Shown: positions 1,731 to 36,332 of the stretch, in pieces | Numbering within the stretch: position 1 is the stretch's first letter | Layout: every line of letters begins with the position of its first letter | NCBI GenBank assembly: GCA_028285755.1 | Contig: JANQOQ010000008.1 | Span: forward strand, 381,399-445,398 | Direction of reading: 5' to 3' | DNA length: 64,000 nucleotides | From: Puniceicoccaceae bacterium | GTDB lineage: Bacteria; Verrucomicrobiota; Verrucomicrobiia; Opitutales; JAFGAQ01 | The notes under the pieces: model-generated | What the model was told of the DNA's origin: nothing | Database searches by the model: none | The model's input: the letters and a program-made list of their open reading frames with translations, nothing else | Program-made: the position numbers and the translations under genes

Positions 1731-3155
<1,425 letters not shown>

Positions 3156-3176
3156 CTAAATAGGTGTTTGAGTATG

Positions 3177-7880: not shown

Positions 7881-8204
7881 AGATTCAGTAGAGTGATTGT
7901 AAACTATCTGTCGACAAAAGTGGACAAAACTTAAAAGAAGCAAAGCTAGACCAAATTCGTCAACTCGATAATAGCCTCCAAATGGTATTTATTACTTTTA
8001 TCAATACTCAGTCTCAACATTTAAAGAAATCATTAAGTTTAGAACAAAGCCTACTAATCTATATTAGAAAAACTTTAGCCACTGACTCTTGTTCTATGAC
8101 TTAATAGAAATTGTGGCTTGAATTATCAGAGAGCGAGTACTAGCTTCTGCGGTTGCTGAGAATTGGAATGAACATTTTTCAGCACATCATTTCTAATACA
8201 ACGA
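7881..8204. other. Intergenic region upstream of the ATP synthase operon
   Basis: 324 bp of AT-rich sequence between the divergently read atpB and a methyltransferase gene. It must hold the promoters of both. No open frame of credible length and no RNA family was recognised. A TTGAGA with a 17-bp spacer and a poor TAATAA on the minus strand is the best promoter-like pair seen, but it is too weak to call. Confidence 0.5.
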
Positions 8205-8879
8205 GTGAAAAATCCGAAAAAAAAGATGAACCTTCAGGAGCGATTTTTGGCGCACATGGTAAAGAAGATCTCTACCCAATACCCTGAAGAACTCCCCAGT
8301 CGCTTTCAGCTTTTGTGCCTGCATTTCGCCTGGGGTAACTACGGTTTTATGGCCGGCCTGAATTATCTGAAGCAAATAGCGCGAGCGACGGATGAGACCA
8401 AGGGCCCAATCCTTGAATGCGGCAGCGGCCTCACGACTTTACTCATGGCGATGCTTACCAAAGGCCGTAATATTCACATCTATTCACTCGAGCACCATCC
8501 CATCTGGCAGGAGAAAATGACAAAGACTTGCCAAAAACTGGGCTTTGACCACGTAAGCATCATTAATGCACCGCTCAAGAATTTTGGCGATTATGATTGG
8601 TATGACGTCGATAAGGCCAATCTACCGATGGACTTTAACCTCGTGATTTGCGATGGCCCACCGGGCAAAATCAAAGGCAGTCGTTATGGACTCATCCCCG
8701 AGATGGATAAGCACCTGACGGAGAGCTGCACCATCCTCCTGGATGATGCGGGCCGCAAAAACGAGAAGCAGGTCATCGAGCATTGGGAGCGCCGCCACGG
8801 CTTTGCCTATCGCATGAAAGGCGTGTTCCCTAAGTTTGCGATGGTCAACCGGGCACCCGCCTACGCCAAAGGCCAGTAG
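8205..8879 (+). CDS. Class I SAM-dependent methyltransferase-like protein
   Basis: 224 residues from a GTG start; an ATG seven codons in (8226, M-N-L-Q-E-R-F) is an equally good candidate. The Rossmann-type SAM-binding motif I is visible as I-L-E-C-G-S-G-L-T-T near residues 70-79, followed by an acidic end of strand 2 (Y-S-L-E-H-H). Motif IV-like D-F-N-L-V-I-C-D-G-P-P-G near 145-156 and a late L-L-D-D-A strand follow. This set resembles the class I/FkbM-adjacent methyltransferases whose substrate is unknown. No signal peptide, so cytoplasmic. Its stop is 3 bp from the stop of the convergent GH2 gene. Substrate not identifiable. Confidence 0.7.
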   Translation: MKNPKKKMNLQERFLAHMVKKISTQYPEELPSRFQLLCLHFAWGNYGFMAGLNYLKQIARATDETKGPILECGSGLTTLLMAMLTKGRNIHIYSLEHHPIWQEKMTKTCQKLGFDHVSIINAPLKNFGDYDWYDVDKANLPMDFNLVICDGPPGKIKGSRYGLIPEMDKHLTESCTILLDDAGRKNEKQVIEHWERRHGFAYRMKGVFPKFAMVNRAPAYAKGQ

Positions 8880-8882
8880 GAT

Positions 8883-11147
8883 TTACAGATTCGTCGTGTC
8901 CGAGGTCTCACGTTCTCTAAGTGGGGCGTGGTAGTGTAAGTGGTATTCGGAGTCGTATTCCGGTCTGTTGGCTACTTTGAGTTGTATCTGAAATAAGGTT
9001 TTGTCACGCATTTCCGGTATCGGGTATCGCAGGATGGGTCCCGTAAAATTGGTATCGGTTGATAATTTCGGATATGCCCAGTTGCCGATCTTTTGCTGGT
9101 TACCATTTATCTGAATAAACACTTCGACTTCGCCTGAATCCACAACAGTTTGAGAGTCATTCAGCAGGTAGCATGAAATTTCGAGTAGTTCCTCGGTCGT
9201 CCATGAGAATTTTGCAAAGGACGCACAGGCCAGCACCGGCCGGCAGGATTCGACGACCTGATAGTAGGCCGGTTTGGGTTTTGCCGGGTAACTGATCAGG
9301 CTGTTATTCGCAGCAGTGGGCCACGGTTCGTTGAAGCACCAGTTCAGCACCATGGAGCAATACGGCTGCTTGATGCGGCTGCTCTCATACCAGCATTGAT
9401 AGCCGACTGCCTGGAGTAACTGACTGTGCTTGATCACAGTTTCAAGATCATGCGCTTTGCCGAAATACTTTTCGACCGTCTTCAGCTCCAGCCACGAATC
9501 CGACTGCCACGCCTCGTAGGCGTGGTGCGCGATCCAAGCATCACTTGCACGCGGTGGATATAGTTCATCCTCAGGAATAATGCTTTCCAATGTTTCGCGA
9601 TCTGCAATGCCGGGCACTCCAAACTCCGGGTAGGCGGTGTTGTGCGCTCTACGGCAAAGCTGAAATACATCTTCGCCACTCTCCTCATCGTAAAAGAGAT
9701 AATGCCCGTGTCCGACACCCATGAGTGGTGAGGTATTGATGTAGGGAATCTCAGGGGCGAGCTGGTAACAGAGACTATTAAGCAGCCGTAAGACATGAGA
9801 TTGGTCATCCATGCCTGACCAGTTGTTAAAGAGCTCATTGCCGCCACAAAGTGTGGACATGCACGCATGTCTGCGCATCCGGGGGATGATCGATCGCGCC
9901 TCCTGCTCCAGTACCTTCAAATATTCCGGATCATCCGGGTAGGCGTTGCAGGCCAGTGGGAACTCCTGCCACAGCAGTATACCCAGCTCATCGCAAATCT
10001 CATAGAAGCTCTTCTTGTTAATGATTCCACCGCCCCAGACACGTAACAAATTGAAATGAGCACTCTTAAAGAGTTCCAGTAGTTCTCGATAGCGTGCTTC
10101 ATCAATCTTCCCATAAAACACTTCAGGTGGTACCCAGTTGCTGCCTTTTGTGAAAATCCGTTTGCCATTGAGCTCCAGTTGAAAGGGTGCGCTGCTTCGG
10201 GACTTGGGGAATGCTCTCACTTCATCCCAGGTTCCCTCATTCATGACGAGCTTAACAGTCCTGAAACCCACCTGCTCAACGATTGAATCGATAACCTTCC
10301 CCGAATCATCGATCAACTGTAGCTCGAGCCTGTAAAGATAGGGTTCACCCAGATCATGACTCCACCATCGATTCACGTGATCTAACTCAACCTTAAAGCT
10401 ATGAGTGGGTCCGTTGATTTTGCCAGTGCGTTGTGCAGTTGCAAGCCCTTCCCGATCCAACAACTTCCATTTGTAGTTCAACGATTGATTTCTGGTCGTT
10501 TCAAAGCGATACTCCAATTGTGCTGTATCATCGGAATTTAAGACATATCTCAATTCAGTATCCTTTATCTTGGTTTTCGGCATTATCACCAATTCAGTTT
10601 CATCCCAGATCCCCAGCGGGACTAAGCGGGGGTGAAAGTCCCAGCCATAACTCACTGCAGGCTTAACAGCTGTATCCGCCTCTCGTCTGCCTACCTCAGC
10701 ACCCGGAGTTTTCGGCACAGGGAAGATGGTGACTTCCAGTTGGTTTTCATCTTTTAAATGGGAGCTTAAGGTCAGATCAACGGGTGAAAACATTCCAGTC
10801 TGGTCGTGCAGTAGCTCACCATTCAGGCAAACTTCGAATGCGTAATCGATGCCCTCTGATCGAAAAATAAGTTCATAGTCGTCCGGAATATTGGGCCTGC
10901 CGAACTTAGCCTGATAGTGCCAATATTTGTCCTCAAAAGGCAGATATTGTTTGAAGCGATCGCTGAACTGCCAATCCGGATGACCCTCCGCTTGCATGAA
11001 ATCCAGCTGCACGGCACCCGGAATATTTGCCGGATAATAGGCTTCCGGCTGCTCATTTTTTGTATTTGAGCAACCAACCTCCCATTTTAAAGGAATAATT
11101 TGGGGGAATCTGGGGTTTTCTGGGTCTTCCTTGATAGTAGTATCCAT
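8883..11147 (-). CDS. GH2 beta-mannosidase-like glycoside hydrolase
   Basis: 754 residues without a signal peptide, so probably cytoplasmic and acting on imported oligosaccharides. The order is that of GH2 beta-mannosidases: an N-terminal jelly-roll (about residues 15-190), an immunoglobulin-like domain (about 195-300) and a TIM barrel from about 320. The acid/base is Glu438 in C-G-G-N-E-L-F and the likely nucleophile is Glu508 in Y-P-E-F-G-V-P. The barrel start R-V-W-G-G-G and the W-Q-E-F-P-L-A-C motif are typical of the mannosidase branch (family knowledge). It is somewhat shorter than the usual 800-850 residues at the C-terminus. Divergent from the FN3 lipoprotein gene, only 44 bp apart. 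Specificity for beta-mannose is inferred. Confidence 0.88.
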   Translation of the reverse strand: MDTTIKEDPENPRFPQIIPLKWEVGCSNTKNEQPEAYYPANIPGAVQLDFMQAEGHPDWQFSDRFKQYLPFEDKYWHYQAKFGRPNIPDDYELIFRSEGIDYAFEVCLNGELLHDQTGMFSPVDLTLSSHLKDENQLEVTIFPVPKTPGAEVGRREADTAVKPAVSYGWDFHPRLVPLGIWDETELVIMPKTKIKDTELRYVLNSDDTAQLEYRFETTRNQSLNYKWKLLDREGLATAQRTGKINGPTHSFKVELDHVNRWWSHDLGEPYLYRLELQLIDDSGKVIDSIVEQVGFRTVKLVMNEGTWDEVRAFPKSRSSAPFQLELNGKRIFTKGSNWVPPEVFYGKIDEARYRELLELFKSAHFNLLRVWGGGIINKKSFYEICDELGILLWQEFPLACNAYPDDPEYLKVLEQEARSIIPRMRRHACMSTLCGGNELFNNWSGMDDQSHVLRLLNSLCYQLAPEIPYINTSPLMGVGHGHYLFYDEESGEDVFQLCRRAHNTAYPEFGVPGIADRETLESIIPEDELYPPRASDAWIAHHAYEAWQSDSWLELKTVEKYFGKAHDLETVIKHSQLLQAVGYQCWYESSRIKQPYCSMVLNWCFNEPWPTAANNSLISYPAKPKPAYYQVVESCRPVLACASFAKFSWTTEELLEISCYLLNDSQTVVDSGEVEVFIQINGNQQKIGNWAYPKLSTDTNFTGPILRYPIPEMRDKTLFQIQLKVANRPEYDSEYHLHYHAPLRERETSDTTNL

Positions 11148-14736: not shown

Positions 14737-16284
14737 CTAGTGAGTATTTGTCTGAGTCTCTATCTGTAGATACTTTGCCTTTTTCGCTTCAGCAATACGC
14801 GCATCCAATCGCGTTTCCAGTTCCTTGAGAATATCCGCGTATTCAGGCTTATCTGCCAGATTTGTGAATTGCTGGGGGTCCTTCTCCATATCGTAGAGCA
14901 TGTATTCATTAGGCCCGTCTTCGTTCACATAACGCATGAGTGCCCATCGCTCTGTTCGCAGGCTGAAATGCGAATGCACTTGGGTAATGGCATCATTACG
15001 CTTACTGGCTGCTTCCGGATTATCCAGTAGATGAGCAAAACTCTTGCCCTGGATTGCGTCCGGTGCTTTAAGGCCGGCCAGTTCAGCAATGGTTGGGTAA
15101 ATGTCCACAAACTCGATTAATGCGTCACTCTTGCGGTTCGATTGCTTCTGCCCGGGCGCACTGATGATTAATGGAGCGCGAGCGCTCTCTTCCATGAGGC
15201 TATGCTTCTGCCACATCGTGTGCTCACCCAAGTGATAACCATGGTCAGACATGAACACAATGATAGTATCATCCGCCAAATCCAGTTTCTCCAGGGTGTC
15301 CAAAAGCCGACCGACTTGCTCATCCATATAATGGATGGAGGCATAATAGCCACGCAGGCCTTTTCGTTGTGCTTCGAGTGTAAGCTTATAATTGGCTGCA
15401 TTGGTATGACGTTGTGCTACGATGGGTATATCCTCAAGATCGCCTTCCGGTACTTCAGGCAGGAGCATTTCGTCCGCCACAAAGGGTTTAAACGAACGCT
15501 TGGGTGCTACAAAGGGTGCATGCGGTCTTACAAAACCAACACCGAGAAAAAATGGGGTATCGTTGTTCGCTCGTTCTTTTAAAAGCTTAATCGCCTTATG
15601 GGTGGCAGCACCATCTGCAAGCTCTTCATCCTCTACATCCGTTTCAATAATCACAAAATCATTACCCTGGTGGTTGCCATGATGGATGTAAAAACGGCCT
15701 CCCTGATGCCGTTGCGCATACCACTTTTCCCGGTATTCTTCAAACACCGGTGTGCTGTCCACAAGCATCACGTCCTCCACGATGCCGGGTGTCAGCGATT
15801 CCATTACGCTGACATTGTAGCGTTCATGCCATGAATCAGCATGGTCGGAGCCATTGTCCCCACTAAAAATGTGCCCGGGCACCCCCATATGATAAATTTT
15901 GCTAACGCGACCACTCCAATAACCGGAGTTTTTGAATAGTTCGGGCAATGTCGGAGTTTTTACATTAAGCATATCCCGATTGCCAACTACTCCATTGGTT
16001 AATGGATAGAGCCCCGTCATTATAGAAGCGCGGGAGGGTCCGCAGAGCGGAAACTGGGAATACGCACGGGTGAATGAGGTGCCGCGTTGAGCGAGTCTGT
16101 CGAGGTTCGGAGTTAGGGACTGGGGATGCCCGAAGCCGCTCAGCGCACTACTCAGGTCATCCGCGATTATAAAAAGGACATTCGGGGCTTTTTCGGAATC
16201 ACCTGCCTGAATAAAACCCGGCACAGCAAAGACGATCAAAGTAAGTCTGAGTAAATGAGTAAAAAGGGGCTTTCGTATATTCAC
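14737..16284 (-). CDS. Sulfatase, iduronate-2-sulfatase-like, secreted
   Basis: 515 residues with a signal peptide (about 1-27, ending I-Q-A). A formylglycine-dependent sulfatase that removes sulfate esters from sugars. Cys81 in L-C-G-P-S-R-A-S is the residue converted to formylglycine. Metal ligands are visible in F-I-I-A-D-D-L (residues about 38-44) and M-S-D-H-G-Y-H-L-G-E. The Q-F-P-L-C-G-P-S-R pattern and G-Y-H-L-G-E are those of the iduronate-2-sulfatase-like S1 group (family knowledge). It needs a maturation enzyme, which is not in this window. It starts 11 bp after the SbtB-like gene, so it may be cotranscribed with sbtA-sbtB. The true substrate is not readable; marine relatives act on algal polysaccharides. 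Confidence 0.92.
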   Translation of the reverse strand: MNIRKPLFTHLLRLTLIVFAVPGFIQAGDSEKAPNVLFIIADDLSSALSGFGHPQSLTPNLDRLAQRGTSFTRAYSQFPLCGPSRASIMTGLYPLTNGVVGNRDMLNVKTPTLPELFKNSGYWSGRVSKIYHMGVPGHIFSGDNGSDHADSWHERYNVSVMESLTPGIVEDVMLVDSTPVFEEYREKWYAQRHQGGRFYIHHGNHQGNDFVIIETDVEDEELADGAATHKAIKLLKERANNDTPFFLGVGFVRPHAPFVAPKRSFKPFVADEMLLPEVPEGDLEDIPIVAQRHTNAANYKLTLEAQRKGLRGYYASIHYMDEQVGRLLDTLEKLDLADDTIIVFMSDHGYHLGEHTMWQKHSLMEESARAPLIISAPGQKQSNRKSDALIEFVDIYPTIAELAGLKAPDAIQGKSFAHLLDNPEAASKRNDAITQVHSHFSLRTERWALMRYVNEDGPNEYMLYDMEKDPQQFTNLADKPEYADILKELETRLDARIAEAKKAKYLQIETQTNTH

Positions 16285-18298: not shown

Positions 18299-19954
18299 CT
18301 AGATACGCTTCAGCACGAGTAGGTAATCATTCTGAGACGGGGCTTCCAGTTCTAAAATGGGTGCACAATGGGTGCCGGGCACTGATTCCCATTCGTTGTT
18401 ACGCGGGTCAAACCACCTGACTTCATATTGCCATCCGAGAGCGTTTCGTATCTGTATTATATCCCCTCGTGGGATGTAGGCGATGATCGTGCTTCGATCG
18501 ACACTTTCGGATACGCTTACAAAGTGATTGTATACTTTATCGCCCGGCTGCTTAAGCAACAGATGGGACGCTGGTCTGAAGTCCCACCAGGCAAAGGTTT
18601 CGAAAAATCCAATAAGATAACCCATTTGTTTGCCTCCTGCAAATTGCAGGCATTGCCTCCAGGTGCTGGTACCAGGAGGATGGCGGTGGTTTAAAATGCG
18701 CTCTCCGGGCTGCTGTAACCAGGGCCATATGCCATTAGCACCATAGCTGATACCCGCAACCGGGGTTGCCAGGATACTCCAGTAAGCGGCATTGCGAACA
18801 TCCTCGGCATCGATGTTAAAGTAAATTTCCTCGTAATTCGGCTCGACGTTAATAAAGGGGCGAGGCGCGATCTGGCTCCACTTTGTGGCATGGGGACCTT
18901 TGTTAATCCAGTTCACTACTTCTTCACCAGAGTTGTGGCTCGATTGATAGCCAACAATCTGATACCATTCTTCTTTATCGTAGATATCGCCCAACCACGC
19001 CCGGGTGGGGTGTGTGGAGGTTACCCCCTGAATCCCCCTAGAGAATACGCGATGCGCGATTTCCAGCCAGCGATCTTCGTTATATTCATCATATTTGCCA
19101 TCTCCCCCAAGCATCCAGACGACGTGGTTACCATTTAACCGCGCGGCAATGTATTTGGCAAGCAGGGCGGCTTCCCGTACCGGCAGGTAATAGCCCGGAC
19201 TCAGATGCGTAGCATCCCCGAAGGGCAACGCCCACAGCAATATCGGCACTGCCACCAGGCCATGTTGGTTAATCGCGTCTGCCCGGGCATCAATATCTTT
19301 AAAAAAATCCGGATTGAGCTTGATGTGACCGCTCCCAGTAAATGCGACTCTGCCTTTGCGGTCCTTATCCAGACCACGCCATTGAGTGGTTACAAACTGG
19401 ATCGCGGTAAAGTTCTGCTCTGCACGGAATGCCAGGTATTCCTGCCACTCTTCATCCGTTGCCTTCATCGCTCCGTTCCAGGTAGTATCCGCCAGCCAGA
19501 AAAAGGGAGTGCCATCTTGGTGACTCAGGTGATAAGTGCCCCGGGTTTGCACAATGGGTCCATGCTGATGCAAACTGAGCTGACTATTTCCAACAACACA
19601 TTTGAATGTACCACCGATACCGTGGAGACCCGCATTCTCAGTATCTGAGCACACGGTACGATAGCTCCATTCACCTGGTTCGCGCGGCATAAAACGGATT
19701 TTCCATTCCCTACCGCCATTCCAAAATCCGTTAACCCTGATTTCCTTACCGGAAGGGGCGGTGAACAAGGCGTAAAAATCCTCCACATCATAGAGTGGGT
19801 TTTCATACTGAGATGTGCTTTCAAGCGTTAGTTCATACTTTGACCAGAGTATGGCCTGTTCATCTGCGGCGTCGGTATCCGCCTTACAAAATACCGTCGT
19901 TATTAAAAGGAATTTACCGACGATAATCAAAATCAAGTGAAAGTTTGTTTTCAT
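18299..19954 (-). CDS. DUF5060/DUF4038 glycoside-hydrolase-like protein, secreted
   Basis: 551 residues with a signal peptide (about 1-25). An N-terminal beta-sandwich of the DUF5060 type (about 35-115) contains the F-T-A-P-S-G-K-E-I-R-V-N-G-F pattern and W-K-I-R-F-M-P-R-E-P-G-E-W. A DUF4038-type TIM barrel follows (about 130-460): F-F-W-L-A-D-T-T-W, then V-W-M-L-G-G-D-G-K, and N-V-E-P-N-Y-E as a candidate catalytic acid region. A short C-terminal beta domain of the putative collagen-binding type follows (about 475-551). Related proteins include apiosidase-like and other GH140-like enzymes (family knowledge). It sits 78 bp after a sulfatase in the same orientation. The exact activity is unknown. 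Confidence 0.82.
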   Translation of the reverse strand: MKTNFHLILIIVGKFLLITTVFCKADTDAADEQAILWSKYELTLESTSQYENPLYDVEDFYALFTAPSGKEIRVNGFWNGGREWKIRFMPREPGEWSYRTVCSDTENAGLHGIGGTFKCVVGNSQLSLHQHGPIVQTRGTYHLSHQDGTPFFWLADTTWNGAMKATDEEWQEYLAFRAEQNFTAIQFVTTQWRGLDKDRKGRVAFTGSGHIKLNPDFFKDIDARADAINQHGLVAVPILLWALPFGDATHLSPGYYLPVREAALLAKYIAARLNGNHVVWMLGGDGKYDEYNEDRWLEIAHRVFSRGIQGVTSTHPTRAWLGDIYDKEEWYQIVGYQSSHNSGEEVVNWINKGPHATKWSQIAPRPFINVEPNYEEIYFNIDAEDVRNAAYWSILATPVAGISYGANGIWPWLQQPGERILNHRHPPGTSTWRQCLQFAGGKQMGYLIGFFETFAWWDFRPASHLLLKQPGDKVYNHFVSVSESVDRSTIIAYIPRGDIIQIRNALGWQYEVRWFDPRNNEWESVPGTHCAPILELEAPSQNDYLLVLKRI

Positions 19955-20032: not shown

Positions 20033-21382
20033 TCACTTAAGAACCTGTAATCTCTTGTTCAACACGGAGCGCATGTCCTCCAGTGCTTTGGAATGCTCTA
20101 CAACCTTGATAAGGTTATCGTGTTCATGAGGGTCCTCCTTAAGATGGTAGAGTTCCTCAGCATTATCTTTGTATCGGATATAGTGATAATCCTGTGTGAT
20201 GATCGAATAGTTGCCTTCATAGCAAACCGAGAATCCGTAAGAATTGGATTTGTTGCTTTCGGGACTGAATAAGGAAGTACCGTCCAATTGGGCAACCGGT
20301 TTGAGATCCGCTAAATCAATGAGCGTAGGGTAAATATCCACAAGCTCGGATACATCTTCTCGTGTATGTGCTTTTGTAATACCTGGCCCGGCAAATATCA
20401 AAGGCACATGCAGGGATCTTTCCCAGAGTGTAACTTTCTTGAAGAGTCCTTTTTCACCCAAATGATAGCCATGGTCCGACCATAACACAATAATCGTATT
20501 TTCCGCATAGGACGATTCCTTGAGTGCATCCAGGACCAAACCTACACAATAATCCACGAAGCTGACCGATGCGTGGTAGGCCTGCACGATATCTCGCCAC
20601 TGGTTGTTTCGAATCGCCCACTCGGTCGTTGGGTAATTGGGGTAATTCGGGTCAATAGGGATCGCTGTCTTTGGTATATCGTTCAGGTCGTTAGGGTCAT
20701 ACGGTGGCAGGTTCTGGTCAGTTAGCTCACTGTGCAAATCAAACCATTCCTGTGGCGCATACCAGGGGACATGCGGACGCAAAAACCCCACCATCAACAT
20801 GAATGGACGGTCATGCTCTTCCGAGAGTCTGTCTATTGCCCACTTTGCACTGCGGTAGTCTGCGGTTTCTTCGTTGCTTTCAGGATGCGCGCCCCAGTCG
20901 GTACTGGTTCCGATCTGATGCCATTTAAACTTTAACCGCGGACCGAACGGTTCGCGCCCGCCGGATTGATCGACAGACCCTTCCGTCACGTGATGGTGCA
21001 TGAGTTTACCAACGGCCATGGTTTTATAACCATGATCCGTAAAGTATTCATGCATCAGTCTGATACCTTTGGAAGCTGCCATATCACTGACCACCTCATC
21101 GCGTATGTGGCCATAGATGCCGTTGTTGGTCGGGTATAAACCACTGAAGACGGAAGCTCTGGACGGTCCACAAAGTGGAAACTGGTTATAGGTTCGGGTA
21201 AATAAGGTTCCCTGGTTTGCTAAGCGATCGATATTCGGGGTAAAGGCATTATCATTGCCCATACACCCTATCCAGTCATTCAGATCATCAATTGAGATCA
21301 TCAGGATATTTGGCTGATTTTCTTTGGCCCAGGCTGTAAGCAAGGAAATGACGAAGAGCAGGCTTAGTTTCAGGACTTTCAT
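20033..21382 (-). CDS. Sulfatase, iduronate-2-sulfatase-like, secreted
   Basis: 449 residues with a signal peptide (about 1-20). Cys71 in L-C-G-P-S-R-A-S is the predicted formylglycine residue. Metal-binding motifs I-S-I-D-D-L-N-D and W-S-D-H-G-Y-H-L-G-E are intact. It shares the Y-N/S-Q-F-P-L-C-G-P-S-R-A-S core with the sulfatase at 14737-16284, so both belong to the same S1 branch and may be paralogues, but the rest differs enough to suggest different sulfate positions. It starts 52 bp after the TonB-receptor gene, so it is probably part of the sigma/FecR/receptor transcription unit. The substrate is inferred to be a sulfated polysaccharide fragment. Confidence 0.92.
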   Translation of the reverse strand: MKVLKLSLLFVISLLTAWAKENQPNILMISIDDLNDWIGCMGNDNAFTPNIDRLANQGTLFTRTYNQFPLCGPSRASVFSGLYPTNNGIYGHIRDEVVSDMAASKGIRLMHEYFTDHGYKTMAVGKLMHHHVTEGSVDQSGGREPFGPRLKFKWHQIGTSTDWGAHPESNEETADYRSAKWAIDRLSEEHDRPFMLMVGFLRPHVPWYAPQEWFDLHSELTDQNLPPYDPNDLNDIPKTAIPIDPNYPNYPTTEWAIRNNQWRDIVQAYHASVSFVDYCVGLVLDALKESSYAENTIIVLWSDHGYHLGEKGLFKKVTLWERSLHVPLIFAGPGITKAHTREDVSELVDIYPTLIDLADLKPVAQLDGTSLFSPESNKSNSYGFSVCYEGNYSIITQDYHYIRYKDNAEELYHLKEDPHEHDNLIKVVEHSKALEDMRSVLNKRLQVLK

Positions 21383-21434: not shown

Positions 21435-24400
21435 TTAAAAACGGAAGGTGTTGGTGAGATAAAAGGTGCGCGGGTTAGGTATTCTTACCACTGCCACCTG
21501 TCCGTCTGGATTCGTCCTGACCGGGATATCATCACTTTCGCCGATTGCATTGCGGATGTTCAGTTGGATTTTCCAATCCACTTTGCCATCGAACAGTGGG
21601 CGCTCATACCCTATCCAGAGATCCCCGCTGAGCAATCCGTCATCGAAAAACGGTTGATCCACCAGCGGCACGGGTACTCCGGACTCCTCCTCAAGTGCAA
21701 AGACATACCCCGTGGCAGCCTCACTTTCCCAGCGAACAGCACCCCCGACAGAGGTCCCCCGGATTTTGCCTTCCTTAAATTCGTAGTTGGTGACCCCTAC
21801 CACACGCCATTCACGCTGCTCATTGGATACAGTACCATCCAATGCTGCAACCTGGCGAACGGGAGCAAGAAAACTGGTTAACCAACGATCAGATATGGGG
21901 CGTAACTGCCCTTCTCCGGTAGGATCGCTGACGAGTTCGTTCAAACGGCTGGCAAACAAATCGCGATTATACTGCTCCGCAACGGAAGCCATTGTTCCCG
22001 CAGTGTTGCTATTCGTAGTTTCCTGCTTACTTATGTTGAGCAGAATACGCCAGTTGTCTTTCGGATTGGCTACCGCTTCGACTTCAAAACCCTTTGCGAC
22101 ACGATCCCGCGTGGAGCGTAGGTTCTGTATCGGATCCTGCTGACTCCACTCATCCACAATACCGTTGCCGTCAGTATCAGAGAAGACCGGATTCGTTGCC
22201 GCCAGGACCTCTGCCGGGATTATGCCGGTAAGTGCATCAAAGAACTGCTCATAGCTTTGGATCGGGTGGCCCGCGGGATTATCCACCAAAGCCAGCGCAT
22301 TTGAAAAAGGGATTCCCTCATTGAAAGCAGCCAGATAGCTTCCAAAGGATTCGCCGGCGCTGCTGAGCACATTGACTCTCACTCCGGCATCGATGCCTTC
22401 CAATGCAGTTTCAAACCAATTGAACTTTATGGAATATTTCCCCTCATCCAAAGACAGCAGGAAGCCATACTCCTTGGTAGTACCCGTGGGTTGATCAATG
22501 GGCCTACCCAATACATCACTTCTCAGGCCTACCGGATTGAAATTTTCAGACTCCGCATAATGGAACTGAAGATCCGCACCCCAGGGGAGATCCCCCAAAA
22601 GCACTTCAGGATATCTCGCCACGATGCTCCAGGTAACGGTTTCGCCGGATTGATCCAGGAAAGGCTCACTAGCAAGTTGTGTAAAATCAGGATTGTAGCT
22701 GCCATCCTCATTATCTCTACCAAACCCAACTTCAGCTGTTGTGGCCTGGCCAAACGACTCGGTGGAGTCTTCGCGCCAGCCCAAGAGACCTACAATATGC
22801 TCGTCGAACAGATAACTCTGCCAGGCAAATGCCGTTGCATCGATAGTGGTGCGTCCGATACCTTCACTGTTCAGATAGCGTTCGACCTGTACGGGCCCCG
22901 TCATCACTGCCCGGTCCGCAGGAGCGGATTTTCCGGCATCTCCAAAGATCACGTTAAAGCTGTCTCCGGGTTGCGGACGGCGGATGTTGATCTGATTAAT
23001 TCTCACATCGTCAATAGAGTTTAAGCCCAGGAGCGAATCACTGACATAAACTCCGATGTTTACCGGGCGGCGGAAGTGATCAATCGTTGAGCCGGCAACG
23101 ATACTTGCGATATCAATAGAGTTACTGTTCCAGGCCTCCATATGGCGACGCGAAAAAGTATCCCGCGTATGGGAGTTGTAGAGTGCTGTAAAGCGATGCC
23201 TGCCCAGGTGCCTCAAGAAGTTATCATTATCACTGAAATCCAGTTCCCCAAAAGCGGTGATCCGGAAGGTCTCACGATCTGTTTCGTCATATCTGATTTC
23301 GGGTCGTGCCACCCGGGAATAGGCTCTTCCGAGGTTTGGGTTCACCTGCCCATTGGGCAAATACTCTGCAATATCGACGTAGATATCATAGGGACCCGTA
23401 CGGCTTGTACCATTTCCACCTGCAAAAAAGAAGTCACGGGTGGATTCGTAATGCTGTTTATCATAGCTGATCTCGATACCCGCTCGATTATCAAAAAAAC
23501 CTTGTTCGAGGCTGAAGTTGATAGCATCGAATTCACGTTCGGCAATGTCGATACCCCCCGAATAGATATTATTGTGGTAGTCAAACACACGACGGTCCTG
23601 AAGCGTGGGAACGGCAAACCCAATCGCATATGGCTCACCATAGGGACTGTTGGCATGATACCAAACCAGGCGATTTAGGCCAGTGCTGCCAGGCAGTCCC
23701 GCAACACCCGGGGTGCCGGTAAGGCCCGCACTGTCCAAACTGTCTCTGCCTGCATTCCAGGGGATCAGGCCCAGAAACCCTTCCCCGTTATTATTACCGA
23801 TGCCCGGCTGATTATTGCCATATATACCCATTACGTGCCTGAATACTGCAGGGCGTACGGTCGTATTGATAAATCTATCCGAGTTAATTTCAAAAGGATT
23901 GTAGGTTGCCTGATACTCCCATCGGCCCCCATCTGCAGGAGCGATCGCCTGAGGGAATGGGGCACTGCCCGTAAATTGCTCAATATTGGGTGAGATGGGC
24001 TCAAACCAGTTGTGGTAGGCCACTGACGGAGGTATGACCTCCGGCGGGGAACCCTTGGATACACCAGTCTCCCCGTTCACTCTTAAGACCGTCCTGTCCA
24101 GAAAGTTGCTACCTTCATTCTCGAAGATAACCCATTCTGCGGTTCCGTAAAATCGCTCATCCCGATTCCAGGCAGGGTCCTGCTTAAATTCAGTATCGTC
24201 ATAAAGTCCGGCAATACGAATCGTAAAACGATCTTCGATTATACTTCGATTTACATCGAGCTCGGTGCGAAAACTTCCAAAATTATCCAGGCGCACTTTT
24301 ATCTCGGCAAAATCAGAATTCATAATCGCTCGCTTCACGGTATTATTAATCACCCCTCCCGGGCTTCCAATACCAAACAGCAAGGAATTCGGCCCACGGT

Positions 24401-25403
24401 TAATCGTAACGCGCTCCGTATTGTAACTGTCCAAAGGAATATCCGTTAGAAAGAAACTGCGGGTGAGCGCCGCGTTGCCCAAGCCCCGTATCCTCTGATT
24501 GAACTGTGGATTGGTCCTGGCACCGTTCTGGATAAAGCGCCCGTCGTCCACATCTTCAGCGCCCGAAAAGTTACCCATAACTCCACCGACTTCAGCATTG
24601 CCTACATAGGACAGCAGCGTTCCCATACCGGTGGCAGCCGTATCCTCCAGGAATTCGGTCGTTACGACACTGATTGAGGAGCCCAGGTCTTTCAGGTTCG
24701 TTCGGATGCGCGTCCCGGCAAGCGTAGAAGTCGCCTGGTAGCCGACATCTTCTGTAGTCGTTACGATAAAGGGAGACATCTCGAAGATATTCTCCCGGTC
24801 ATCAGCGTCTGACTCCTGACCGTGCGTCGAGCTGGCCAACAGTATGCCGACGATACCCGCAAAAATTGTGCGGAAATTAGAACTTTCTTTCTTCATGGTT
24901 TCAGTGTTTGTACTTTTTTTGGGTTTAACAGGCTCCGATTGAGGAGCTTGAGGATACAAACCTGCATCCGAAACAATGATGGCATAAGTTTTGGACTGCG
25001 AATCCTCGAATAATTCGAGGCCCGTGTTTGCCAGCAACTTTTGAAAAGCATGCTCGACGGTGAATTCTCCCTCTAATGAGGCCGTAATCACGGAGTCCAC
25101 GGTCTGGGGCTGAAACATCAGGTCGATGTCTCCCTGCTTTGCAGCTATTTTCAAGGTTTTGATGGCCTGACCTCCAGGAACGGAGAATTGAAAACTCTCC
25201 TTCGCCTTGAGGGCAAAACTTACTACCAACACTGCCAGACAACTGCCCCAAAGAACCACAGAACGAAAGCTGACCGGAGCCAACTGGGATATCTGTATAA
25301 ATAAGTCGGGGCATGTCTTTGCAGGTTTGTATGTCTGCCTGACTGCACTTTTAAACCAACTCACTAAAAAGTTTTTATTGAAAAAGTGTATGAGTATTTC
25401 CAC
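21435..25403 (-). CDS. TonB-dependent receptor with N-terminal STN domain and internal signal-like segment
   Basis: 1322 residues from a GTG start. A membrane/signal segment lies at about 47-66, followed by an STN domain (about 70-145: F-S-V-P-G-G-Q-A, then A-F-Q-K-L-L-A-N-T-G-L), which in FecA-type receptors contacts FecR. A Lys/Thr linker leads to Met170 (ATG at 24894-24896). From there M-K-K-E-S-S-N-F-R-T-I-F-A-G reads like a second signal peptide ending H-G-Q near residue 197. The plug follows (T-L-A-G-T-R-I-R-T-N; N-R-G-P-N-S-L-L-F-G-I-G-S-P-G-G), then the barrel, ending T-N-T-F-R-F. It is 20 bp after the fecR-like gene. Substrate inferred from neighbours: an oligosaccharide. The join lies beside a run of seven A on the coding strand, so a frameshift or fusion should be considered. 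Confidence 0.9.
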   Translation of the reverse strand: MEILIHFFNKNFLVSWFKSAVRQTYKPAKTCPDLFIQISQLAPVSFRSVVLWGSCLAVLVVSFALKAKESFQFSVPGGQAIKTLKIAAKQGDIDLMFQPQTVDSVITASLEGEFTVEHAFQKLLANTGLELFEDSQSKTYAIIVSDAGLYPQAPQSEPVKPKKSTNTETMKKESSNFRTIFAGIVGILLASSTHGQESDADDRENIFEMSPFIVTTTEDVGYQATSTLAGTRIRTNLKDLGSSISVVTTEFLEDTAATGMGTLLSYVGNAEVGGVMGNFSGAEDVDDGRFIQNGARTNPQFNQRIRGLGNAALTRSFFLTDIPLDSYNTERVTINRGPNSLLFGIGSPGGVINNTVKRAIMNSDFAEIKVRLDNFGSFRTELDVNRSIIEDRFTIRIAGLYDDTEFKQDPAWNRDERFYGTAEWVIFENEGSNFLDRTVLRVNGETGVSKGSPPEVIPPSVAYHNWFEPISPNIEQFTGSAPFPQAIAPADGGRWEYQATYNPFEINSDRFINTTVRPAVFRHVMGIYGNNQPGIGNNNGEGFLGLIPWNAGRDSLDSAGLTGTPGVAGLPGSTGLNRLVWYHANSPYGEPYAIGFAVPTLQDRRVFDYHNNIYSGGIDIAEREFDAINFSLEQGFFDNRAGIEISYDKQHYESTRDFFFAGGNGTSRTGPYDIYVDIAEYLPNGQVNPNLGRAYSRVARPEIRYDETDRETFRITAFGELDFSDNDNFLRHLGRHRFTALYNSHTRDTFSRRHMEAWNSNSIDIASIVAGSTIDHFRRPVNIGVYVSDSLLGLNSIDDVRINQINIRRPQPGDSFNVIFGDAGKSAPADRAVMTGPVQVERYLNSEGIGRTTIDATAFAWQSYLFDEHIVGLLGWREDSTESFGQATTAEVGFGRDNEDGSYNPDFTQLASEPFLDQSGETVTWSIVARYPEVLLGDLPWGADLQFHYAESENFNPVGLRSDVLGRPIDQPTGTTKEYGFLLSLDEGKYSIKFNWFETALEGIDAGVRVNVLSSAGESFGSYLAAFNEGIPFSNALALVDNPAGHPIQSYEQFFDALTGIIPAEVLAATNPVFSDTDGNGIVDEWSQQDPIQNLRSTRDRVAKGFEVEAVANPKDNWRILLNISKQETTNSNTAGTMASVAEQYNRDLFASRLNELVSDPTGEGQLRPISDRWLTSFLAPVRQVAALDGTVSNEQREWRVVGVTNYEFKEGKIRGTSVGGAVRWESEAATGYVFALEEESGVPVPLVDQPFFDDGLLSGDLWIGYERPLFDGKVDWKIQLNIRNAIGESDDIPVRTNPDGQVAVVRIPNPRTFYLTNTFRF

Positions 25404-31309: not shown

Positions 31310-32740
31310 TTAGAAATCGAGTGGAACCGGAGGGAAGAATTCGCTGGGCGTGTGCTCCCGGATCATGATTTCCTTTATTTGCTGAACAATCTCAGGATAT
31401 CTAGTGGCTAAGTCGTTTTGCTCCCCCGGATCTTCATCAAGATTATAGAGTTCTATCGGTGCGGTTGGGTTATTAAGCAAATCCACGCGCACGCCCTTCC
31501 ATTTGCCCATACGCACGCCCGTCTGAAATCCAAAGCCATTGCCGGGCCAGCCAATGGGAAACTCCCAGTAGAGGAATTCGTGTTCCTTCTGTTCTTCACC
31601 CAGGAGTGTCGGTAGGTAAGAGATGCCGTCCGTTTCAATCGGGTTTTCGATACCTGCGATATCCGTAAGGGTAGCAAAGAAATCGTAGAAAGTACTGAGA
31701 TGATCGGTCGCCCCTCCGGCTTCTATGGTTCCGGGCCAGGTTGCAATGAGGGGCACACGGATGCCACCTTCGTAGACATCCCGTTTAAATCCGTGCAGCC
31801 CGCCCGCACTATCGAACGGTGCGGTATAGCCTGCGCTGTCACTCACCGGTCCATTATCGCTGGAGAACATGATGAGCGTGTTTTCTGCAATACCCAGCTC
31901 TTCCAGTTTTTTGCGGATCAGCCCAATATCGCGATCCATACGGGTAATGGTAGCTGCGTAGGACTTGGAGTCTCCCTCCCAGCTGGTAGCGGTGTAGATT
32001 CCATCGTCGGGAATTTCCATCCTCTGCCCGAGGGGAGCTTCCCCGTTATCGTGTGGAATAATCCAGGGCAGATAAAGAAAGAACGGTTGGTTCTGATTGG
32101 CTTCGATAAATTTCAGGCTTTCCTCAATGAAAAAGTCCTGTGAGTAATCTACTTTCTTAGTTGAGTAGCTGCCGAGGCCCTGGTGCCAGGCTTCCGGATC
32201 GATGTATTTAACCTCATTATCGAGGTAGATTTTTTCGTCATTTTTAAGCAGATACTCAGGAAATGCATTGTGTGCGAGTACCTGGTCCAGGTAGCCGAAG
32301 TATTCATCAAAACCGCGTTTTAAAGGATTGCCGATGGTATCTGCATTGCCGAGGCCCCATTTGCCGATCATGGCGGTGCGATAGCCGTTTTCCTGAAGTA
32401 CTTGGGCAATGGTTGTTTCCGATAGCGGCAACGGCAATTGGCCAATGCCCCTATCGTGTTGGCGATTGCCGCGCACGGGTGTATTTCCACTATGTTTGCC
32501 GGTCATGAGGATCGCACGTGAAGGGGCACAAACGGGGGAACCTACATAGTGTTGAGTGAAACGTATGCCCTCATTGGCCATTTTATCCAATTCGGGGGTC
32601 TGGATTAGTTTTTGACCATAGCTGCCGAGATCTCCATAGCCGAGATCATCGGCTAAAATAAATATGATATTGGGTTTATTCGCTTTGGCACTCGCACACG
32701 AAATAATTAAAAGTGAGATAAACAAGGTAAGGAATTTCAT
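31310..32740 (-). CDS. Arylsulfatase-type sulfatase, secreted
   Basis: 476 residues from the ATG at 32740; the frame is open 28 codons further, but M-K-F-L-T-L-F-I-S-L starts a proper signal peptide (about 1-18). Cys71 in V-C-A-P-S-R-A-I is the formylglycine site. F-I-L-A-D-D-L-G-Y-G-D-L-G near 27-38 and S-S-D-N-G-P are metal-site motifs of arylsulfatase A-like enzymes. It therefore belongs to a different S1 branch from the two C-G-P-S-R sulfatases in this window. It follows the two PEP-CTERM genes (87 bp gap). Substrate unknown; removal of sulfate from a polysaccharide is inferred. Confidence 0.92.
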   Translation of the reverse strand: MKFLTLFISLLIISCASAKANKPNIIFILADDLGYGDLGSYGQKLIQTPELDKMANEGIRFTQHYVGSPVCAPSRAILMTGKHSGNTPVRGNRQHDRGIGQLPLPLSETTIAQVLQENGYRTAMIGKWGLGNADTIGNPLKRGFDEYFGYLDQVLAHNAFPEYLLKNDEKIYLDNEVKYIDPEAWHQGLGSYSTKKVDYSQDFFIEESLKFIEANQNQPFFLYLPWIIPHDNGEAPLGQRMEIPDDGIYTATSWEGDSKSYAATITRMDRDIGLIRKKLEELGIAENTLIMFSSDNGPVSDSAGYTAPFDSAGGLHGFKRDVYEGGIRVPLIATWPGTIEAGGATDHLSTFYDFFATLTDIAGIENPIETDGISYLPTLLGEEQKEHEFLYWEFPIGWPGNGFGFQTGVRMGKWKGVRVDLLNNPTAPIELYNLDEDPGEQNDLATRYPEIVQQIKEIMIREHTPSEFFPPVPLDF

Positions 32741-32827: not shown

Positions 32828-33652
32828 CTACTTCTTAAGGATCGTTCTAAAATTCACCTTGCGTCTGCGTAGCTCAATAACAATCAGAGCCAGTAGTCCA
32901 AAAGCACCTGCCGCGTAGGTTCCGGGTTCGGGAACCGGAGTAAAGGCGACATTCCCGATTCCAAAATTTTGATCATTGGGGTTACTTTTACCCCCCGGTC
33001 CACTCGAAAAGCGAAATGTGATGGTATCGACCGGTTCGGTCCACGCGATGTTGAGCGTGGATTTGTCTTCCCAGCTGGTTTTAGTATTTCCCCGATAAAG
33101 GGTATTCCCCGGATCAGTTGATGTATCCATAGTAATACCGCTGCCATATGTGATTACCAAACCGCCCGTTGGTGAACCATTGGAAGTAGCGGTGATCATT
33201 TCCACGATGTCTTCCCACTTGTTGTTCTGAAAATCAATATCCATGATATCCACATTACCGGTAGTGTGCTGACTGAAGCTGATCGTGATGTCCACGTAGT
33301 CCGTTAAGCGGTTATCATCATTAAAGTCGGGCTCAATGATCAATGCGCTTTTACTGTTACTATCATCGATATCATCCTCATAGTCATCACCGGCACTGAT
33401 GGAAGCTGAAATGGTAATATCTACGCCCGAATCGTCTACATTTTCAAAAGTGCCTTCCGTCTGATGGCTATCATCGTCATCGTCGTCGTCATCATCATCG
33501 TCGTCATCATCATCTCCTCCGCCGCTGTCGGTCTTACCGTCATCCCAATCTACATTTTTCCAGTCCAATTCAAAATCGGCAGCCTGCACTTGCTGCATAC
33601 TATAAAAAGCAAGCAATGCGATAAAAATGAGCCTATAAAGTCTGCGGGTCAT
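32828..33652 (-). CDS. PEP-CTERM protein with poly-aspartate tract
   Basis: 274 residues from the ATG at 33652 (a TTG at 33667 is less likely). Signal peptide about 1-24, ending V-Q-A. The mature start F-E-L-D-W-K-N-V-D-W is followed by Gly-rich residues, then 15 consecutive Asp, then a beta-rich domain (G-V-D-I-T-I-S-A-S-I). The C-terminal sorting signal is V-P-E-P-G, a membrane helix, then R-R-R-K. Exosortase would cleave at P-E-P and release or anchor the protein; no exosortase is in this window. It is a tandem paralogue of the next gene, which lacks the Asp tract. The poly-Asp could bind calcium or metal (inference). Confidence 0.88.
   Translation of the reverse strand: MTRRLYRLIFIALLAFYSMQQVQAADFELDWKNVDWDDGKTDSGGGDDDDDDDDDDDDDDDSHQTEGTFENVDDSGVDITISASISAGDDYEDDIDDSNSKSALIIEPDFNDDNRLTDYVDITISFSQHTTGNVDIMDIDFQNNKWEDIVEMITATSNGSPTGGLVITYGSGITMDTSTDPGNTLYRGNTKTSWEDKSTLNIAWTEPVDTITFRFSSGPGGKSNPNDQNFGIGNVAFTPVPEPGTYAAGAFGLLALIVIELRRRKVNFRTILKK
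33470..33514 (-). repeat. Codon repeat encoding 15 consecutive Asp
   Basis: Forty-five bases of mixed GAT and GAC codons encode 15 Asp in a row inside the PEP-CTERM protein. The mixture of codons makes pure trinucleotide slippage less likely to expand further, though related sizes could occur. The paralogue at 33725-34477 has no such tract. Confidence 0.95.
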
Positions 33653-33724
33653 GAAGAATACAATCAACTTAATCCTAAAATCGGTAATTTAACAAAAACC
33701 TAGGATTTGAATCTCAGACATTTA

Positions 33725-34477
33725 CTAAAATTTAATAAATTTCTTTTTACTTTTACGTTTTTTATACTCGCGCCATCCCAATAGGGCCAAAGCACACAGT
33801 CCTGTAACGTATGCGCCCGGTTCCGGGACGGGTGTAAAGGTAATATTGCTTAAACCAATGACTTGGGCGACTGGATTACTGATTGCGCGGCTCCCGCTGG
33901 AATAACGAAAAGAGATATTATCCACTGGTGCGGCCCATGCAATTTGCAGGGTAGAGGCATCGTTCCAGTTCTGGTTGGATCGTCCGCGATATTCGGTTTC
34001 GCCGCTGTTGGTTACGGTCCGTATTTCAGATCCGGCTGTAATGGTGAGATCATCAGTGGTGTTACCCTCATTACTTGCCTGTATATCTTCAATGATATCT
34101 TCCCAATAAGATATGTTGCCTGAGCGACCCCGATCCACATCGAGTAGCGAAAAATCTGCACTATAAACCGTACTGCTGAAGGAAATATTAACATCTATGA
34201 AGCTTGTAGAGGGATTGTCCGTACTGAAATCCGGGAAAATGACGAGAGAACTGCTGCTATTGGAATCATCCAGAGGTGAGTAATAGAATCCGCCATTGAT
34301 GGTGAGTGAAATCGTGATGTCTATTCCGCTGCCATCAACGTCATTGAAAGTTTGCGAAGTATTACCTGAGTTCCAGTTTACCTGAGTCCAGTCCAACTCT
34401 GAAGACTGGGCATGTGTGATGAATACCACCATACAGGTAGCCCAAGCAAAACATCCTAATTTCCATAAGATTGCCAC
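33725..34477 (-). CDS. PEP-CTERM protein, paralogue of the poly-Asp protein
   Basis: 250 residues from a GTG start. Signal peptide about 1-23. The mature protein starts S-S-E-L-D-W-T-Q-V-N-W, then T-F-N-D-V-D-G-S-G-I-D-I-T-I-S, parallel to the downstream neighbour, and continues in step with it to W-N-D-A-S-T-L-Q-I-A-W and the C-terminal V-P-E-P-G, helix, and K-K-R-K tail. The only large difference is the missing Gly/Asp insert. A secreted, exosortase-sorted surface or exopolysaccharide-associated protein of unknown function. It lies 72 bp upstream of its paralogue, on the same strand. Confidence 0.87.
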   Translation of the reverse strand: MAILWKLGCFAWATCMVVFITHAQSSELDWTQVNWNSGNTSQTFNDVDGSGIDITISLTINGGFYYSPLDDSNSSSSLVIFPDFSTDNPSTSFIDVNISFSSTVYSADFSLLDVDRGRSGNISYWEDIIEDIQASNEGNTTDDLTITAGSEIRTVTNSGETEYRGRSNQNWNDASTLQIAWAAPVDNISFRYSSGSRAISNPVAQVIGLSNITFTPVPEPGAYVTGLCALALLGWREYKKRKSKKKFIKF

Positions 34478-34625: not shown

Positions 34626-36332
34626 GTGTATCTAAGTCTCAGATCTAAACTATTATTTATCTATTTGCCGATTGCGCTTGTGGTGGTTGGTCTGGTGTTT
34701 AGTGCACGCCCGGTTTATCGCTATTTTAAGGAGATTCGGGCTTCGGTAATTTCCGAGAACGCTCTGAATCGCTACCTTGAAAATCCTACGGATTTGGAAG
34801 CGGTTAACGAAGTTTCACTTCAGCTGCGTTCTGCCCTTGCGCTCGACCCGGATGGTTATGCGCCTAACCGGGGTCTGGCGATTGTTTTGAATTTCACATC
34901 TCCTGCCGTTGCACGCCAGTATTGGGAACAGGCTATCGAATACACAGGAGACCAAATCACCATACAGGACCGCATGGCGTATGTTCAGTGCCTCATCGTT
35001 AACAATGATTTTTTGGCAGCTGAGCAGGAGTTATTAAAGGTGCTCGAGCAGGACCCAAACAATGTGGATGCCCAATATAATTTGTCAAAAATATATGTAC
35101 TAATCGGGCAGGAAACCCGGGCATTGGAATACGCACGCGACTTTATCCAATCAGCGGATACCCCAATTGAGCGTCATCTTTTCTATATAGGGATGTGCCT
35201 GAATTCCGATGATCCCTCAATCATCGCCGAGGGCGATGCGCATATCGAATTTTTGCTGGATAATTCTGATCTCATAAACGATCAGGTGATGTGGCAGATG
35301 ACTGAGATTGATGCCCTGAATATTGAAATCAAACGCCGCCTGCAGGATCAACTCCAGCTGCGGGTGGATGAGTTTGAAGATGAAATCCGACTGGTTAACC
35401 ACCGTATCCAAACGGGCGTAATTACCCGCAATGAAGGGTTTGAATACCTTATGGGCAAAACCCGTGAAGCGGATAATCGCTATGTAACCCGACTTGCAGA
35501 GTGGTGCAGCGATGTAGGGCTCGCTGAGCAGGTGCCCGTTCTCCTGTCTGTGCCGCTAGCCCTGCAACGCAAAGACTGGTTTCTGATCCTGATTCGTAAT
35601 CTGGGTCGCCTGGAGCGTTGGGATGCTGTCGTGCGTATTCTGGAGGAGGAGCAATGCCCCATCGAGCGTTTTTGGCTCTATATCCTAAAAGTGGAGGCTT
35701 ATCGTGCCATGGATAGCGATGCCGAGATGGTCAATGCCTGGTATCGTGCCAAACTGGAGGCATTGCCACTGCCGCTTCACTTTTGGACGCTTATCGAAAT
35801 GGGTAATGAAGCTGGGTTGAATTACGAAGCGGATGCTTTGCTGGACCGACTGGTGATCCTGGGAGTGCCCGCTGAGGAAATATTGGGGTATGGCGCACGA
35901 TTGGCCCATGAAAGCAGAAATTTTGACAGGCTCTACACCACACTGACCTCATTTTACGATAAATATGGGGGCAATCCAGACATCGCAAACGATTGGGCCT
36001 ACTATTCCATTCTGATGGATCAAAACGGGGGTGAAGCCCGTGAGGTAGTTGAAACGCTTTCAAAACAGTATCCCAATCGGCTGCGTTACCATATGACTTG
36101 GGCGTTGGGAAGAATCAAGGATAGTCGTTATTCCGAGGTTTTAGCACGCTTTCAAACCATTGATGTGGAGTGGGAAACGCTGCATCCCAAGTGGCGTTTG
36201 ATACTTGCATTTGCACTGGCGGGGGTGGATGAGTTTCAGCAGGCACAATACTATCTCGAAGGTGTTGATATGGAGCAGTTTAATGAGTATGAGCGTGCCA
36301 TTTACGAACGCTTGTTTTATAATCGTACATAA
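34626..36332 (+). CDS. Membrane-anchored TPR-repeat protein
   Basis: 568 residues from a GTG start. One N-terminal membrane helix (about 8-26), so anchored in the inner membrane with a large soluble part. Helical repeats of the tetratricopeptide kind are visible: A-A-E-Q-E-L-L-K-V-L-E-Q-D-P-N-N-V-D-A split here as L-L-K-V-L-E-Q-D-P-N and Q-Y-N-L-S-K-I-Y near 140-160. The rest is repeat-like but degenerate. No enzyme motif. It probably acts as a scaffold, but partners are unknown. A TGTGGATAA sequence just before the start resembles a single DnaA box, considered chance. Confidence 0.75.
   Translation: MYLSLRSKLLFIYLPIALVVVGLVFSARPVYRYFKEIRASVISENALNRYLENPTDLEAVNEVSLQLRSALALDPDGYAPNRGLAIVLNFTSPAVARQYWEQAIEYTGDQITIQDRMAYVQCLIVNNDFLAAEQELLKVLEQDPNNVDAQYNLSKIYVLIGQETRALEYARDFIQSADTPIERHLFYIGMCLNSDDPSIIAEGDAHIEFLLDNSDLINDQVMWQMTEIDALNIEIKRRLQDQLQLRVDEFEDEIRLVNHRIQTGVITRNEGFEYLMGKTREADNRYVTRLAEWCSDVGLAEQVPVLLSVPLALQRKDWFLILIRNLGRLERWDAVVRILEEEQCPIERFWLYILKVEAYRAMDSDAEMVNAWYRAKLEALPLPLHFWTLIEMGNEAGLNYEADALLDRLVILGVPAEEILGYGARLAHESRNFDRLYTTLTSFYDKYGGNPDIANDWAYYSILMDQNGGEAREVVETLSKQYPNRLRYHMTWALGRIKDSRYSEVLARFQTIDVEWETLHPKWRLILAFALAGVDEFQQAQYYLEGVDMEQFNEYERAIYERLFYNRT

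Follow-up and report, generated by a model that had tools for sequence, protein, structure and literature searches.

A Tandem Pair of Predicted PEP-CTERM-Type Surface Proteins Differing by a Poly-Aspartate Insert in a Puniceicoccaceae Bacterium

Two adjacent genes of a Puniceicoccaceae bacterium, denoted pep1 and pep2, encode homologous proteins with hydrophobic N-termini and borderline PEP-CTERM sorting tails, and pep2 is set apart by an insert containing fifteen consecutive aspartates. The genes lie within the window, which is the whole 64,000-nucleotide stretch of DNA that was analyzed. With confidence that is about even, we favor the reading that the pair are exosortase-processed matrix adhesins derived from a tandem duplication, and that the acidic loop of pep2 is a late add-on. 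To our knowledge, a fold or ligand has been assigned to few of the numerous PEP-CTERM proteins. A domain that lacks a model, is joined to various anchors in several phyla, and possibly resembles polymer adhesins offers a concrete ligand hypothesis, and paired copies with and without a poly-Asp loop form a natural experiment on the effect of such a loop.

The gene pair and its sorting signals

The two genes and their C-terminal signals are arranged as follows.

33725-34477, minus strand: pep1, 250 aa with a GTG start, a PEP-CTERM-type surface protein without the insert
33725-33829, minus strand: sorting tail of pep1, VPEPG followed by a hydrophobic helix and a Lys/Arg-rich end
32828-33667, minus strand: pep2, 279 aa from TTG or 274 aa from the ATG at 33652, carrying the poly-Asp insert
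32828-32935, minus strand: sorting tail of pep2, VPEPG followed by a hydrophobic helix and an Arg/Lys-rich end

The genes share the minus strand and are separated by 57 nt. Compared end to end in a local comparison, the proteins have 102 identities in 264 positions (39%, E 2e-48), and a global alignment gives 45% identity. Each has a hydrophobic N-terminus, and the mature part of each opens with ELDW. An earlier note, made from the sequence alone, had described tandem PEP-CTERM paralogs that are collinear from ELDW to the tail apart from one insert of roughly 25 residues, and had offered a lack of homology upon alignment as grounds for giving up this view. The comparison bears the description out, with homology over the whole length, one insert of 24 residues that separates the two, and sorting tails that are borderline by score. 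In a scan for promoters and terminators, sites were no commoner than in shuffled sequence (3 versus 7.0; 3 versus 3.2).

Both tails have the PEP-CTERM form, composed of a Pro-Glu-Pro motif, a hydrophobic helix, and a basic end, and their fit to existing models is borderline. In a search of the whole genome with PF07589, the two tails score 23.6 and 21.1 bits and pass the cut-off of 20.7, while in a protein scan they score 20.2 and 17.4 bits, just below it; weak matches to this model occur in 13 of 14 control genomes, none of the 14 over the cut-off. The genome search with TIGR02595 listed neither tail. Its one match over the cut-off in this genome is a 62-aa frame elsewhere, and it matches 12 of the 14 control genomes, with two over the cut-off. 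In the predicted structures, C-terminal helices span residues 220-245 of pep1 and 243-273 of pep2.

Exosortase-type sorting of the pair, as the earlier note had proposed, gains a candidate enzyme. The genome carries an exosortase gene (G000:C11:559571-560347) that scores 135.9 bits, over the cut-off, and processing of the pair is predicted. A second match of 14.5 bits in the same genome is below the cut-off, and one of the 14 control genomes has a match over it. The best NCBIfam match of the exosortase is XrtD, at 119.1 bits and under the cut-off of 400, and the protein bears an EpsI-like end (PF11984, 27.8 bits against a cut-off of 26.1). The gene has polysaccharide export, tyrosine autokinase, and Wzy-type neighbors within ~6 kb, which mark an exopolysaccharide locus.

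The known system closest to this arrangement in its sorting signals is the PEP-CTERM/exosortase (EpsH) system, which, in the text available to us from Haft et al. 2006 (PMC1569441), shares with the pair a hydrophobic N-terminus, VPEPG, a hydrophobic helix, and a basic tail. Its exosortase likewise lies within an exopolysaccharide locus, and a TPR protein belongs to its proteobacterial version, as a TPR gene adjoins pep1 here (same source, same extent). The differences are that the Pfam tail model fits only at its cut-off here, that TIGR02595 recognizes neither tail, that the domain is modelless, and that the PF07589 and TIGR02595 searches yield few PEP-CTERM-like tails in this genome. In addition, the portion of PMC1569441 seen describes mostly single-gene operons, whereas pep1 and pep2 are a tandem pair, and its table has no PrsT, PrsK, or PrsR for Verrucomicrobium spinosum.

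Elsewhere in the same genome (L033, G000:C7:1-12000), a second tandem pair of PEP-CTERM-like proteins at 2-508 and 680-1750 on the plus strand has PVPEAS tails and is 69% identical over 167 residues, its first member being cut by the contig end. A TPR gene on the minus strand (1770-3455) is convergent to this pair and weakly resembles PrsT (TIGR02917, 47.4 bits; cut-off 312.2).

The poly-Asp insert and the history of the pair

The insert is placed between the motifs ELDWxxVxWxxGxT and TFxxVDxSG in the pairwise alignment.

33452-33523, minus strand: 24-residue insert GGG-D15-SHQTEG, present in pep2 only
33470-33514, minus strand: run of 15 Asp codons, nine GAT and six GAC, inside the insert

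The Asp run of pep2 exceeds chance composition. A pattern of ten Asp codons matches the 4.25-Mb genome just once, at the pep2 run, and a control pattern does not match it at all. Twelve Asp codons are found in 5 of the 273 genomes of the order, and a control pattern read backwards in 3 of the 273 (G050, G069, and G255). Among the remaining four genomes with a twelve-Asp run, the frames of G090, G221, and G255 looked eukaryote-like when read and are perhaps contamination, and that of G025 resembled a large protein of a secreted or pilus-assembly type.

The insert is absent from the 11 other rows of a first family alignment (12 rows, with a 91-aa fragment from G004:C32 left out) and from the 17 other rows of a second (18 rows, with L059 and L060 of 16 named loci left out). 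In the model of pep2, the run corresponds to residues 47-61 of the 274-aa form, has no secondary structure, with block pLDDT values of 46 and 58, and is flanked by strands at 35-37 and 63-69, so that the insert is modeled as a disordered, flexible loop. Aspartate and glutamate make up 24.5% of mature pep2, 13.2% of mature pep1, and 6.5-16.8% of ten other members. With the insert subtracted, the value for pep2 is 19.4%, and the acidic excess outside the insert relative to pep1 is not significant (37/191 versus 25/192, Fisher p 0.10).

One explanation invokes an expansion that is neutral or nearly so, produced by codon-repeat slippage in a loop that tolerates inserts and serving no specific task; we rate it as a serious contender at somewhat under even chance. 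An imperfect tandem repeat with periods of 12, 15, and 18 is recognized in the DNA of the run, the tract occupies a single row in each alignment and an unstructured part of the model, and other family members bear unrelated inserts, which sit in another loop in the first alignment. The codons are nevertheless a mixture of GAT and GAC, so the run is no fresh pure repeat, and the sole run of ten or more Asp residues in the genome is located in a protein that is predicted to be secreted and is also acidic outside the run. As to the role of the loop, charge tuning and neutral expansion compete closely. Since the run is missing from all aligned relatives, the present evidence makes dedicated binding of calcium or mineral less likely. 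No literature joining PEP-CTERM with poly-aspartate was found, and articles on polyaspartate and calcium, judged by their titles and the starts of their abstracts, held nothing of use.

Relatives of the pair are few within the order and scattered beyond it. A search of whole genomes with pep1 found the family in all five genomes of the taxonomic family, this one included, and in 7 of the 273 genomes of the order, the same five among them; a profile search found it in 4 of 387 genomes across the phylum. In a collection of named genomes, a first scan with pep1 alone as the query returned no relative. A query built from the alignment identified 16 relatives among 68 pattern matches, with E-values that are relative to those 68 candidates only. 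Six of the 16 loci belong to two Opitutales MAGs and two Cerasicoccus species. The other ten come from Sedimenticola, Nitratifractor, Methyloprofundus, Campylobacteraceae, Algibacter, Aquimarina (two), a deltaproteobacterial MAG, Saprospiraceae, and Verrucomicrobiales, and some of these match over just ~100 residues or at an E as weak as 3e-4. The search for the domain in other genomes that the earlier note had called for thus shows the domain recurring in several phyla.

In a tree of 12 members calculated with the insert excluded, pep1 and pep2 are sisters (92/91), and the copies nearest to them are the TPR-adjoining ones of G001 and G002 (84/92), two other genomes of the taxonomic family. 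The tree program warned of long branches and of the odd letter make-up of pep2, for which reason the support is moderate, and at that strength the duplication looks lineage-specific. The branch of pep2 measures 0.97 and that of pep1 0.42; pep2 has changed more than pep1 and is more acidic. Adjacent pairs occur more than once in the family, because G001 and G002 each have another (L036 3590-5340; L038 1441-3188). The second copy of that pair contains an insert with Gly and Asp in another loop, and the tree does not join the two as sisters, so the pair need not be a recent duplication.

Predicted fold and possible adhesin likeness

AlphaFold2 predicts beta-rich structures for both proteins, with a pLDDT of 83.1 and a pTM of 0.76 for pep1 and of 80.8 and 0.75 for pep2. 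These models are not independent, because both rest on one set of sequences. When Foldseek was run with pep1, its top rows were Sgo0707, with a TM on the query of 0.38-0.39; among the 50 matches listed, carbohydrate-binding modules and lectins are frequent, and none is SspB, Pas, SpaP, GbpC, or PrgB. A second look with VIA-align, which compared only the top 1000 chains of Foldseek and so leaves room for families outside them, places streptococcal and enterococcal surface adhesin domains in all of the top 13 rows for pep1 and the top 12 for pep2. Six proteins account for these rows, namely Sgo0707, SspB, Pas, SpaP, GbpC, and PrgB. Their Z values are 8.3-10.4 for pep1 and 9.2-11.5 for pep2, with the next other fold at 8.1 and 8.5, respectively; the weakest adhesin row of pep1, at 8.3, is tied with the unrelated fold at 8.1. 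The aligned span in most rows covers residues 25-212 of pep1 and 25-235 of pep2.

From these comparisons of models, pep1 and pep2 may resemble the polymer adhesin domains of Gram-positive bacteria. Such adhesins are anchored through an LPXTG sorting signal. The polymer adhesin domains (GbpC, antigen I/II, PrgB) provide the top VIA-align rows for both predicted structures and, like the pair, have a C-terminal sorting signal for surface anchoring. The pep domain differs in having no sequence similarity found, a low Foldseek TM, a smaller size, and a PEP-CTERM-type tail. At E values up to 1, Pfam gave no polymer adhesin family in pep1, pep2, or ten relatives, and a sequence search of the PDB had no polymer adhesin among its 8 weak hits.

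The available part of PMC7726212 describes polymer adhesin domains as a beta-sandwich whose ridge keeps a cation site, and as binding DNA, lipoteichoic acid, and glucans. If the adhesin likeness is real, a cation dependence could stem from the fold itself, whether the Asp run is there or not. This bears on the possibility, along the lines of the earlier note, that the poly-Asp loop is devoted to binding calcium or directing mineral in the matrix, which we judge quite unlikely. Fifteen consecutive carboxylates on a predicted loop, the cation site that the top-ranked folds keep in their ridge (PMC7726212, as far as seen), and the gene for an MgtE divalent-cation transporter two genes away from pep1 are in its favor. 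Such a cation site in the pep fold, if present, would not depend on the run, the run is missing from every aligned relative, and we recognize none of the annotated neighbors, from general knowledge, as tied to mineral formation.

A bolder and improbable extension would make the family the exosortase-sorted equivalent, in Gram-negative bacteria, of the polymer adhesin domains that are anchored by LPXTG. The polyanionic loop of pep2 would then lie beside a polymer-binding face, the pair would be matrix adhesins that differ in their response to divalent cations, and the ratio of pep1 to pep2 could set the stiffness of the matrix.

No model of Pfam or NCBIfam covers the domain above its cut-off in pep1, pep2, or ten relatives. 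The tails found with the domain are PEP-CTERM-like in Opitutales and a deltaproteobacterial MAG and of the T9SS type A kind in Algibacter and Saprospiraceae. Among the known systems closest to this pattern are the "choice-of-anchor" domains of NCBIfam. As in those domains, a single domain is joined here to PEP-CTERM or T9SS type A tails, with the difference that the pep domain is above the cut-off of no listed NCBIfam model. No literature joining "choice-of-anchor" with PEP-CTERM was found. At loci L051-L060, the domain is shared by secreted-type proteins from several phyla, some of them large, with GEVED, DUF11-type, or T9SS parts, and it deserves a family model of its own.

Neighboring genes and the proposed role of the pair

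The pair is flanked by the following two genes.

31310-32740 (from the first in-frame ATG), minus strand: sulfatase, PF00884, E 1.3e-57, 87 nt after pep2
34626-36332, plus strand: divergent TPR gene, N-terminal hydrophobic segment (by reading), conserved neighbor of the PEP-CTERM family

The earlier note had observed that the pair precedes a sulfatase in the same orientation. The orientation and the proximity hold, but the link was not seen in the relatives' stretches L035-L043, whereas the TPR gene is conserved beside the family member. Sulfatase partnership was rejected as the main reading for this reason. Its specific form, in which pep1 and pep2 would be substrate-binding partners of the downstream sulfatase on a sulfated polysaccharide, seems very improbable to us. 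The shared orientation, the gap of 87 nt, and the three sulfatases and the GH26 and GH130 enzymes of the wider window speak for it; yet no ORF matches the window sulfatase at E 1e-4 in the stretches L035-L043 around the relatives, three of which are cut by contig ends (G002 on two contigs and G004 at C59), and the conserved neighbor is the TPR gene.

Genes for polysaccharide degradation are gathered at 8883-32740 of the window. These are sulfatases at 14737-16284, 20033-21382, and 31310-32740, a GH2 gene at 8883-11147, an apiosidase-like gene at 18299-19954, GH26 (27501), GH130 (28754), and a TonB-plug protein at 21435-25403. Their content suggests the use of a sulfated mannan-like glycan, the substrate being deduced from the enzymes.

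The TPR gene adjoins a member of the family in four of the five genomes of the taxonomic family (G000, which is this genome, G001, G002, and G004); in G003, both are present on different contigs. Across the order, the TPR family is found in 30 of 273 genomes, comprising all 7 with the PEP family and 23 without a match to it. The co-occurrence in seven of seven does not represent seven independent cases, because five belong to one family. Compared with the PrsT model TIGR02917, the TPR protein of the window scores 24.7 bits (E 5e-6), under the cut-off of 312.2.

The Aquincola PepA-PrsT system is the nearest experimental parallel to the pep pair and its TPR gene. In the part of PMC9850573 that was available, pepA is located upstream of the TPR gene prsT, on which floc formation depends, and disruption of prsT abolishes flocs. 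In an rpoN1 mutant, extra PepA restored flocs, with less soluble and more bound polymer, and pepA is described there as having no involvement in biofilm formation. A PEP-CTERM gene next to a TPR gene is common to both systems, as far as that source goes, while here the TPR gene is divergent and its similarity to PrsT weak. With the floc_PepA model NF033554, pep1 scores 18.6 bits (E 0.0013, residues 31-242) and pep2 15.5 bits; both fall far short of the cut-off of 80 bits. We therefore assign neither pep protein to PepA nor the TPR protein to PrsT.

The favored reading, matrix adhesins from a tandem duplication, can be set out as a sequence of putative steps. Signal peptides would export pep1 and pep2, and the PEP-CTERM helix would retain them until the exosortase processes them into the outer surface or the exopolysaccharide layer. 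There, the compact acidic beta-sandwich probably binds matrix polymers in an adhesin- or lectin-like manner, as in PEP-CTERM floc formation. A tandem duplication within this lineage would have given rise to the two genes, after which pep2 would have diverged more, turned more acidic, and acquired the flexible poly-Asp loop. The loop most likely shifts the charge and the cation-dependent interaction of pep2 alone and would not be the working part of the family. Computation shows the homology, the insert and its absence from the aligned relatives, tails at the cut-off, the exosortase gene, and a predicted beta-sandwich; export, processing, polymer binding, and the effect of the loop are what we infer.

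Several other features were observed around the TPR loci. Among those listed, the TPR gene of L099 and L101 lies among polysaccharide-like genes, as judged from the frames read. In two other genomes of the order (L097 1176-1958 and L105 7810-8391), a protein with a PEPG tail is encoded 2-4 ORFs away from the TPR gene. G001 and G002 encode, downstream of their PEP-CTERM gene (L035 8395-8724; L037 1432-1698), a small second protein with an LVLPEPA tail, and the one of G001 has no match in Pfam or NCBIfam at E 0.01. An MgtE-like gene comes after the TPR gene in the window and in G003 (L088). In L041 (G004:C32), a 91-aa frame at ~9640-9897 that encodes a C-terminal piece of a family member adjoins an MgtE-like gene (8107-9480, minus strand), and the TPR-linked family copy of G004 is located on another contig. 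The ancestral gene order was possibly PEP-TPR-MgtE and has since been broken up.
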